Assembly (NCBI GenBank): GCA_019114515.1
Contig: DXFH01000001.1
Coordinates: 124,001-188,000 of the forward strand
Reading direction: 5' to 3'
Length of the DNA stretch: 64,000 nt
Source of the DNA: Candidatus Limosilactobacillus merdigallinarum
GTDB taxonomy: Bacteria > Bacillota > Bacilli > Lactobacillales > Lactobacillaceae
This document shows, piece by piece, positions 1 through 58,525 of this stretch; positions within the stretch are counted from its first letter, which is position 1, and every line of letters begins with the position of its first letter. The translations under genes were made by a program, and so were the position numbers. Below the pieces are notes generated by a model that was not told the DNA's origin, did not search any database, and was given only the letters and a program-made list of their open reading frames with translations.

Positions 1-1697
1 TCGTCATCATCCGTTTCGTCAGCAAAAGATGGTTCAAAGACGGCCGCTGTATCAGCAGATTTTGTTAATGATATCGTTGACTGACTGGCGACAGCATTAG
101 CAGCCGCTTCCTCATACTCATCCTGAGTGGCTTCTGCATCCTCTGCTTGTCTTTCTTCTTCGGTTAATAGGCTCTCTTGAGTTTCACTAGCATCGTCACG
201 AATTTTTTGTAAGTTTGCATGACTGAGATCCAGCTTAGGTCGGTGGGCAATTAGTTGCTCTTCTCGGTATTGCTGAATTGCTTTTTTAACGGCTGCCAAC
301 TCATAATCGGGCACATCCTGGGGCTTTAATGGTCGTCCTTCATGTGTCGCTAGCCGAATGAGTCGGTCAATTTCATGCAGTAAGTGATTAATATTTTGTT
401 TGCGTCCCTTCACCGGCGTAAACGTCTGACGGCGCCATTTGCCCCATTCGCAAACATACTCGCGGGCATCGTCAATCTTGTATTGCGTAGTACGTACTGG
501 TTGCCGATCATAGAACACCGCGTTACCAAACAGGTGCACCTGGACTTCTCCTCGCCAGCCCAATAAGTTTTGCATGATGTTTACCTGAGATTCTTTTAGC
601 AAGTTCGCCCAAGTCAGCTGCACAATGCGATAAACCACTGCTGGATTATTCTTCATCAACGGGCACTTGTCTAAATGGTAGCTTGCTAATGAAATTAATG
701 CTTGATAAACTTCGTCACCCTTTGTATCGTCAACATTTTTAAGCACTTCATAAGCATGATCAATTTTGATTTCATCACCAAATTCGGCCTGCTTTTCCTG
801 GTCACCCATTTGGTAATAGACAACGTAGTCTTTTCGCCACTGTGCCAAATACTTTAACATCTGTTCGTCTGCATAATTAGCATATTGCCGCGGAAAAGAT
901 GCTAGTTTTTGGTAGCCATCCTGTACGGAAGATACCCCAATCTGGTTTAACAATTCATATATATAAACGTAGGCAAACGATGTCGGCGCCTTTTCAATTT
1001 TTCCTTTACGTAATTTTGTCCGCCAAGTGAAGTAACCGCGCAATTGACCGACTGTCATATCGTGGTAGGTTGGGAAGAAGTGCCGAAAATCACCCAAATA
1101 TTCATAATCATCCTCATAATCGGCCATCAGCTTTCCCTGCTGGTAGAAATTCTGATTACGACCTTTCAAAGGAGGCAAAGTGTAGTCATATTTTGCCCGC
1201 ATTTTCCGAAGCGGTTCTGGCATTTTGAGTTGTTGCTTTGGTTGAAAATGGGCTGGCTTTGGCAATGGTTGATCACTAAAACCATCCTGCTCATCACCGA
1301 ATGGCAGGACCGTAATTAAGTGCTCTTTCTCCTGCACGACCTGTGTCTTACGGGCACGGTCAAACGCGTGATCCAGTGCTTCTTTAACTGCTGCAACCGG
1401 TGTCTGGTCATCCAAACGAATACTGACCCAGGAACCGTCAGCCATCCTGGTTGGTGCATTAAACACTCCCTGTTGGCGTAACTTAGTGGCACCCTCACCA
1501 TAATGGATTTCCAGAAAATTTTGTCGCCTGTCTTCTGTCAGATGCGTCACATCCGGGTTGCGGCTAATCAATAAAGCAAACCACTTGCCGGTAACCGGAC
1601 ACACGAGCACGCAGTCATCAGGAAAGCGCCGCCACTTGTACTGACCGTCCACGCCATATTGAGCTTTCACATAACGCAGAACCTGCATCCGGTTCAT
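1..1697 (-). CDS. MmcQ/YjbR - TerB_N domain fusion protein (3' end outside window)
   Basis: This reading frame is open from an ATG at 1697 to the left edge (at least 565 codons), so the C-terminus is missing. GGAGGTG lies seven bases before the ATG. Residues 1 to about 115 look like an MmcQ/YjbR fold (start MNRMQVLRYVKAQYGVDGQY, then KWFALL and a DDQTP segment). Residues about 150-290 match a TerB N-terminal domain, with FPTYHDMTVGQLRGYF followed by TWR and a YVYIYELLNQIG segment. The end of the visible part is Glu/Ala/Asp rich and probably leads to a TerB_C domain. TerB-type proteins are linked to tellurite resistance and membrane-stress complexes; YjbR proteins resemble DNA-binding folds. 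The molecular role of the fusion is unknown. Domain assignment is from motif recall. Confidence 0.72.
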   Translation of the reverse strand, partial: MNRMQVLRYVKAQYGVDGQYKWRRFPDDCVLVCPVTGKWFALLISRNPDVTHLTEDRRQNFLEIHYGEGATKLRQQGVFNAPTRMADGSWVSIRLDDQTPVAAVKEALDHAFDRARKTQVVQEKEHLITVLPFGDEQDGFSDQPLPKPAHFQPKQQLKMPEPLRKMRAKYDYTLPPLKGRNQNFYQQGKLMADYEDDYEYLGDFRHFFPTYHDMTVGQLRGYFTWRTKLRKGKIEKAPTSFAYVYIYELLNQIGVSSVQDGYQKLASFPRQYANYADEQMLKYLAQWRKDYVVYYQMGDQEKQAEFGDEIKIDHAYEVLKNVDDTKGDEVYQALISLASYHLDKCPLMKNNPAVVYRIVQLTWANLLKESQVNIMQNLLGWRGEVQVHLFGNAVFYDRQPVRTTQYKIDDAREYVCEWGKWRRQTFTPVKGRKQNINHLLHEIDRLIRLATHEGRPLKPQDVPDYELAAVKKAIQQYREEQLIAHRPKLDLSHANLQKIRDDASETQESLLTEEERQAEDAEATQDEYEEAAANAVASQSTISLTKSADTAAVFEPSFADETDDD

Positions 1698-22023: not shown

Positions 22024-22112
22024 CTTTCTCCCTCCCTAATGTTTCTCCGTTTTTAGTGACTGCTACTAATTTACCATATTAGGGGAACAAATGGTTGGCT
22101 TACGCACAAAAA

Positions 22113-22139
22113 AGAAGAGGCGCATTTTACGCCTCTTCT
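22113..22139 (-). terminator. Terminator of the mini-ORF RNA
   Basis: A perfect 10-bp stem AGAAGAGGCG with CGCCTCTTCT, seven-base loop, followed by TTTTTT on the minus strand. Confidence 0.9.
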
Positions 22140-22169
22140 ACAATGCTGTGTGTCCGTATAAACAATGTG

Positions 22170-22181
22170 TTAAATGCCCAT
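22170..22181 (-). CDS. Mini-ORF 3 (3 codons, MGI)
   Basis: ATG GGC ATT TAA after GAAGTGATACCA. Too short to be a protein in the usual sense. Listed because the Shine-Dalgarno and start are repeated three times. Confidence 0.35.
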   Translation of the reverse strand: MGI

Positions 22182-22218
22182 TGGTATCACTTCAAAATGA
22201 GATTCTGCAGTTACACGA

Positions 22219-22236
22219 CTAAGATAATGTGCCCAT
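22219..22236 (-). CDS. Mini-ORF 2 (5 codons, MGTLS)
   Basis: Follows GGAGTGATTCCA with the same spacing as the other two copies. Ends at TAG. Confidence 0.35.
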   Translation of the reverse strand: MGTLS

Positions 22237-22274
22237 TGGAATCACTCCATTTCAATAAACCAAGCGACCAACAG

Positions 22275-22304
22275 TTATATTACTGCTCGTATCATCCTAA
22301 TCAT
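22275..22304 (-). CDS. Mini-ORF 1 (9 codons, MIRMIRAVI)
   Basis: Follows GAGGTGATACCA, the best Shine-Dalgarno of the three. Ends at TAA. The peptide repeats MIR. Could be a leader peptide or simply a ribosome-binding decoy. Confidence 0.4.
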   Translation of the reverse strand: MIRMIRAVI

Positions 22305-22344
22305 TGGTATCACCTCATTTAATGATTACCTTTGCTACATCTAT

Positions 22345-22373
22345 AATATAGCATGCTTTGTGAGCGCTTACAA
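22345..22373 (-). promoter_or_regulatory. Promoter with overlapping cre site for the mini-ORF RNA
   Basis: On the minus strand, TTGTAA, 17 bases and TATATT with TGC directly before the -10 box. The -35 hexamer lies inside TGTAAGCGCTCACA (22359-22372), which fits the cre consensus TGWNANCGNTNWCA at every fixed position. CcpA bound there would block the promoter. Confidence 0.65.
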
Positions 22374-53792: not shown

Positions 53793-53806
53793 TGTAAACG
53801 TTTACA
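53793..53806. promoter_or_regulatory. LacI/cre operator between GH31 and LacI genes
   Basis: TGTAAACGTTTACA, a perfect palindrome, with half-sites about 30 bases on either side (CGTTTACA ending near 53773 and TGTAAACGTT at 53825-53834). It fits both a LacI-family operator and the cre consensus. Confidence 0.75.
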
Positions 53807-58511: not shown

Positions 58512-58525
58512 TGTAAACGTTTACA
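58512..58525. promoter_or_regulatory. LacI/cre operator upstream of SLC45-type gene
   Basis: TGTAAACGTTTACA, identical to the operator at 53793. A weaker copy (AGTTAACGTTTACA) is at 58624-58637, so two sites 112 bases apart could loop. Confidence 0.75.

Follow-up and report, generated by a model that had tools for sequence, protein, structure and literature searches.

A putative catabolite-controlled RNA with tandem short reading frames in Limosilactobacillus

The locus and its architecture

The 64,000-nucleotide stretch of Candidatus Limosilactobacillus merdigallinarum analysed here (the window) carries on its minus strand, at about 22338-22107, a compact unit which by its sequence is a self-contained gene for a predicted RNA and one member of a conserved RNA family. 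It lies between a phosphoribulokinase/uridine kinase family gene, which we read as coaA, and an IMS-family polymerase gene (Pfam). The unit consists of a sigma-A type promoter, a catabolite-responsive element (cre) overlapping the -35 box, three cassettes each made of a Shine-Dalgarno sequence and a very short open reading frame (micro-ORF), and an intrinsic terminator (Table 1). The initial annotation had proposed that the RNA stands alone and that a cre is fused to its promoter, and the unit's own promoter, cre and terminator support this: the promoter was found as claimed, with TG before the -10 box, the cre TGTAAGCGCTCACA matches the full consensus, and the terminator, described as 10 bp, is present as a stem of 12 pairs. 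By consensus alone neither promoter nor terminator is outstanding (one promoter found against 1.9 in shuffled sequence, one terminator against 0.5), and the unit rises above chance because of the comparison with relatives, since 12 of the 50 genomes in the genus carry it.

Three exact matches to GRRGTGATWCCAATG (22302-22316, 22234-22248 and 22179-22193, all minus strand) open micro-ORFs of nine, five and three codons, just as annotated. When up to two mismatches are allowed, chance predicts 0.72 matches over all 64 kb, and three were reached in 4 of 100 shuffles; a direct-repeat search gave one family with three copies of 20 nt. A long match of every cassette to the 16S 3' tail, whose sequence we presumed for the pairing energies, was borne out for the first two cassettes. 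They pair at -14.2 and -15.0 kcal/mol, which 4 and 1 of the 55 window genes equal, and the third pairs weakly (-7.6 kcal/mol; 45 of 55 genes equal or stronger).

The family has no match among the known families of Rfam. A scan of the window with Rfam 15 gave no match at gathering score, and three further loci (L009, L013 and L014) gave five sub-threshold matches, none near its cut-off. We found no description of this tandem micro-ORF RNA in a literature search.

Table 1. Features of the unit in the window, and extra micro-ORFs at three loci of the L. mucosae group
Feature	Position	Strand	Details
Predicted RNA	22108..22338	minus	231 nt; 5' end placed from the -10 position
Sigma-A type promoter	22345..22373	minus	-35 TTGTAA, 17 nt, extended -10 TGC-TATATT
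cre operator	22359..22372	minus	TGTAAGCGCTCACA; overlaps -35 box
Cassette A	22275..22316	minus	Shine-Dalgarno GAGGTGATACCA; micro-ORF ATG..TAA, MIRMIRAVI, 9 codons
Cassette B1	22219..22248	minus	GGAGTGATTCCA; micro-ORF MGTLS, 5 codons
Cassette B2, leading part	22182..22193	minus	GAAGTGATACCA, weak Shine-Dalgarno
Cassette B2, micro-ORF	22170..22181	minus	MGI, 3 codons
Intrinsic terminator	22107..22139	minus	12-pair stem at 22139-22113; T tract
Extra micro-ORFs, L013	about 1935-1977
Extra micro-ORFs, L012	about 2060-2102
Extra micro-ORFs, L062		minus

Distribution of the family

DNA searches matched 16 genomes of the genus, and four were excluded because the similarity was promoter-like or coding alone, leaving 12 carriers. 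These include L. frumenti DSM 13145 (G022), L. secaliphilus DSM 17896 (G023) and L. mucosae DSM 13345 (G032), and two others correspond to L. kribbianus (G058) and Ca. L. gallistercoris (G001). A model of the transcribed part, built without the promoter, added no member from the remaining 38 genomes, six of which are less complete; its two weak matches there lay inside one Clp-like coding gene and were rejected. A promoter-free pattern searched in 84,980 species hit 34 records, of which nine are lactobacilli. All nine correspond to members already found (six by identical sequence), so this pattern search yielded no member lacking the cre promoter. Two of the other 25 records were examined and proved unrelated.

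Applied to 397 Lactobacillaceae genomes, the model R1 returned 78 matches at E <=0.05, and E was below 1e-10 in five genomes, all Limosilactobacillus. Among the 25 best outside or weak matches that were opened, a cassette array was seen only at locus L156 (genome G293, another genus). Searching 395 genomes of the order for a tandem pattern gave 27 matches, most of which, besides that in G000, resemble codon repeats as listed. Plasmids, phages and viral contigs gave no family match.

The RNA occurs in at least three genomic settings: downstream of a coaA-like gene in two genomes (G000, G023), of the ribosomal protein L1 gene in three (G014, G032, G063) and of an asparagine synthase gene in six, and G025 has only the downstream flank in common with the last group. 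Pfam was applied to one example each of the L1 and asparagine synthase settings, and the rest was read from the DNA. The position between a pantothenate-kinase-like gene and a polymerase gene is therefore not general; it holds in 2 of 12 genomes. No cre-like match was found in the stretch after coaA at 28 further coaA loci (L025-L052), two of which reach just 110 and 155 bases.

Common plan of the homologues

The cre lies 22 nt before the extended -10 in all 12 homologues, nine times exact and three times with one mismatch, and TGnTATAnTATA stands at the promoter in every one. Each RNA ends with a terminator-like hairpin, identified by eye except in the window. The initial annotation had staked its proposal on finding the cassettes and the cre conserved in relatives, and both are kept in the 12 genomes.

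Two kinds of cassette are distinguished: 24 copies are of kind A (MxK/RMIRAVx) and 26 of kind B (MG...), with micro-ORFs of 3 to 10 codons. The count of A does not depend on the expression that we composed, because a mismatch-tolerant search returned the same 24 copies. The number of cassettes per RNA ranges from two (G058) to eight (G032). In the short RNA of G058 the first A has apparently fused with the second B by way of the repeats, and the repeat units in the L. mucosae group are 121 nt long. In that group two extra micro-ORFs follow the A/B array, one encoding MSI or MTI behind a weak Shine-Dalgarno sequence and one encoding MFKPP or MYKPP. The latter has a pair of prolines directly ahead of its stop.

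Conservation of the cassettes

Judged from the alignments, the cassettes are much better conserved than the spacers. Between the window and its nearest relative (G023), cassette columns are identical at 75 of 75 positions and the rest at 137 of 179. In six genomes of the asparagine synthase group (the second clade), compared without the shorter RNA of G058, 103 of 114 cassette columns are invariant against 71 of 155 in spacers, and mean pairwise identity is 96% against 74%. Pairing of the Shine-Dalgarno sequence with the 16S tail reaches -12.6 kcal/mol or stronger, the best quarter of the 55 window genes, in 42 of 50 cassettes, in a comparison that favoured the genes by giving each the best of several start codons.

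The reading frames also close early. In six genomes the A frames close after 9.4 codons on average against 20.2 in shuffled spacers (0 of 2000 shuffles), and the B frames after 6.2 against 12.1 (p 0.006); with three genomes the results were 0 of 2000 for A and p 0.0145 for B, and all these values flatter the case because related copies, which are not independent, were treated as separate. Within codons 4 to 8 of A three kinds of change occur (ATT/ATA, CGA/CGG, CGA/CGC), all of them synonymous, for which we estimate a chance of roughly 2%, and codon 3 varies only between K and R. The A frame is free of insertions and deletions, while the stretch that separates the Shine-Dalgarno sequence from the ATG varies in length and in its bases.

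The window RNA folds better than its shuffles (z -3.6), but a conserved fold was not recovered: the alignment of all 12 members gave two consensus pairs at -0.18 kcal/mol, the six-row alignment gave 82 pairs with just two changed on both sides, and the minimum free energies differ among the homologues. The hairpins once suggested around each Shine-Dalgarno sequence are thus unsupported as a conserved feature. For several members one can sketch by eye a 5' hairpin that would cover the first Shine-Dalgarno sequence. Antisense coding by a plus-strand ORF of 75 amino acids (22095-22322) was considered and rejected; its frame is not kept across clades, as judged from 8 of the 12 members.

A probable relative in another genus

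At locus L156 of G293, next to a MarR-family gene (Pfam), three B-like motifs (TGATwCCrrTrGG; about 1225-1595, minus strand) form an array between genes. By itself the match is weak, because an E of 4e-4 was obtained in one of 397 genomes. Among 26 genomes of the same genus three matched L156, the other two over just 22 and 28-29 nt. No cre is visible at L156. The array is a probable relative, possibly a start-less one, with a single ATG. Two ACCACCAGAA(A)ATG motifs flank it.

Interpretation

The architecture of the unit, its conservation, the many strong Shine-Dalgarno sequences, the early stops and the conserved peptide MxK/RMIRAVx can be read directly from the DNA. We tentatively favour, at somewhat less than even confidence, a trans-acting small RNA (sRNA) that is repressed by CcpA and translated on its micro-ORFs. 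Transcription, CcpA control, translation, and translation itself rather than a downstream gene as the function are what we infer. CcpA would repress the RNA when a good sugar is present. Once repression is lifted, the RNA would provide a number of translation starts, for the most part with extended 16S-tail pairing, from which ribosomes would read very short frames and then stop. The function would be the translation itself, that is, engagement of ribosomes together with the A peptide or its codons. This reading is favoured by the conserved cassettes with their mostly strong Shine-Dalgarno sequences, by the early closure of the frames, by the synonymous changes and the absence of indels in A, and by the cre at the same place in all 12 homologues, whose gene settings differ. 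A more specific version, which we consider doubtful, is a catabolite-controlled ribosome trap that grows by cassette duplication, with micro-ORFs that park or cycle ribosomes and MxK/RMIRAVx acting as a pause at the level of the nascent chain or the codons.

Several facts weigh against the translated RNA. Eight of 50 cassettes, the window's third among them, have a weak Shine-Dalgarno sequence; these are the second B in two genomes (G000, G023) and the second A in six (G022, G025, G067, G002, G024 and G001; -5.7 to -7.6 kcal/mol). The B peptides diverge widely, and the family is absent from 38 of 50 genomes of the genus. None of the 24 A copies shows a change at the third base of GCA or of GTA, or at the opening base of codon 9; selection for the peptide would not by itself demand this, so the RNA is constrained as well. 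In the G293 array GTA or ATA replaces ATG in two of three B-like cassettes, and the pairing with the 16S tail is the strongest of all (-18.9 and -16.1 kcal/mol). If this is a true relative, the start codons of B are dispensable there, which counts against a peptide role for B.

The main competitor, possible though rather unlikely in our estimate, is a sponge of the RosA/RsaI kind: a CcpA-repressed, stand-alone RNA whose G-rich, Shine-Dalgarno-like patches titrate sRNAs with C-rich seeds. The regulation and the repeated patches agree with RosA and RsaI as described (PMC8216469), and G293 retains the patches without the ATG. Against this, the known partner RsaE/RoxS was found in none of the 12 carriers (B. 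subtilis, one of 14 controls, was positive; other C-rich sRNAs were not searched). Sites complementary to the cassette cores outside the RNA numbered 57 (19 for the A core with <=3 mismatches, 38 for the B core with <=2), and the 15 that were opened all lay within stop-free stretches of at least 256 codons. A sponge would also leave the early stops and the synonymous changes unexplained. A search elsewhere for gene starts or for partner RNAs that look like A or B gave nothing convincing.

Three other explanations seem less probable still. A decoy holding 30S subunits by extended anti-Shine-Dalgarno pairing, with start codon and ORF secondary, would suit the strong pairing of 42 of 50 cassettes and the G293 array, where pairing is strongest and start codons are lost. 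We regard it as quite unlikely: it would presumably require a very abundant RNA, 6 of 24 A copies pair weakly, and the A core, which lies well beyond the Shine-Dalgarno sequence, is equally conserved. That this A core, GAUGAUWCGNGCAGUAA, is itself the seed of a base-pairing sRNA, the open frames being by-products, would account for its near invariance in 24 copies, even at positions that the encoded peptide leaves free; but the two varying positions are third positions of codons, the ORFs close early, and no complementary site with <=3 mismatches recurs across clades among the sites listed (shorter seeds were not tested), which makes it improbable. Least credible of all is a leader or attenuator that acts on the gene downstream. 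Tandem short ORFs do resemble leader peptides, but the RNA has its own terminator, and its neighbours vary between clades, with no regulated downstream gene conserved beside it.

Comparison with known systems and meaning

Very short ORFs with a biological effect are exemplified by the lambda bar minigene, and decoys with repeated motifs by CrcZ of Pseudomonas. To our knowledge CrcZ has no micro-ORFs and RsaI/RsaOG of S. aureus no tandem cassettes; the latter also carries a C-rich mRNA-binding region, in which it differs from the RNA here. CrcZ is similar in being a catabolite-repression RNA, acting on the RNA chaperone Hfq, but its regulator and motif are others. As described in PMC8216469, RsaI/RsaOG is likewise CcpA-regulated and stand-alone with G-rich regions. 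RosA of B. subtilis is described there as a CcpA-repressed, stand-alone RNA that binds RoxS and FsrA through G-rich regions and has its cre at -1 to +12 (PMC8216469). The present RNA would be similar in standing alone, to judge by its own promoter and terminator, and in being CcpA-repressed, and it shares a cre at the promoter, here overlapping the -35 box, and several G-rich patches; it differs in that RosA is described in that paper with sRNA partners, not tandem micro-ORFs, and no carrier gave a RoxS/RsaE match. The mg2 minigene of axe-txe has two codons and a biological effect, acting in cis on the next gene (PMC8708949), in contrast to the tandem, stand-alone frames of 3 to 10 codons here. 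The pairing of strong Shine-Dalgarno sequences with very short ORFs, characteristic of inhibitory minigenes, is found in this family.

If the micro-ORFs are translated, this RNA gene would yield as its product initiation events or peptides of nine residues, amplified through tandem duplication and tied to carbon supply, a mode of regulation invisible to standard annotation. The ribosome trap, if true, would be a new kind of RNA tuning translation once good sugar is gone. The type strains of L. mucosae and L. frumenti carry the RNA, so it is testable there.

Other cre-like sites and shared promoters

Elsewhere in the window two perfect palindromic cre-like sites TGTAAACGTTTACA occur at 53793-53806 and 58512-58525. 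Genes in G029 and G066 share the promoter and the opening transcribed bases (TGCTATAATATAG.TGTA; minus strand of L072 and L075); by eye these genes look like ones for a universal stress protein and for a small heat shock protein. In G030, an intergenic stretch (L015, about 1501-1780) with a cre-like promoter and a terminator has different content and may be a separate catabolite-controlled RNA.
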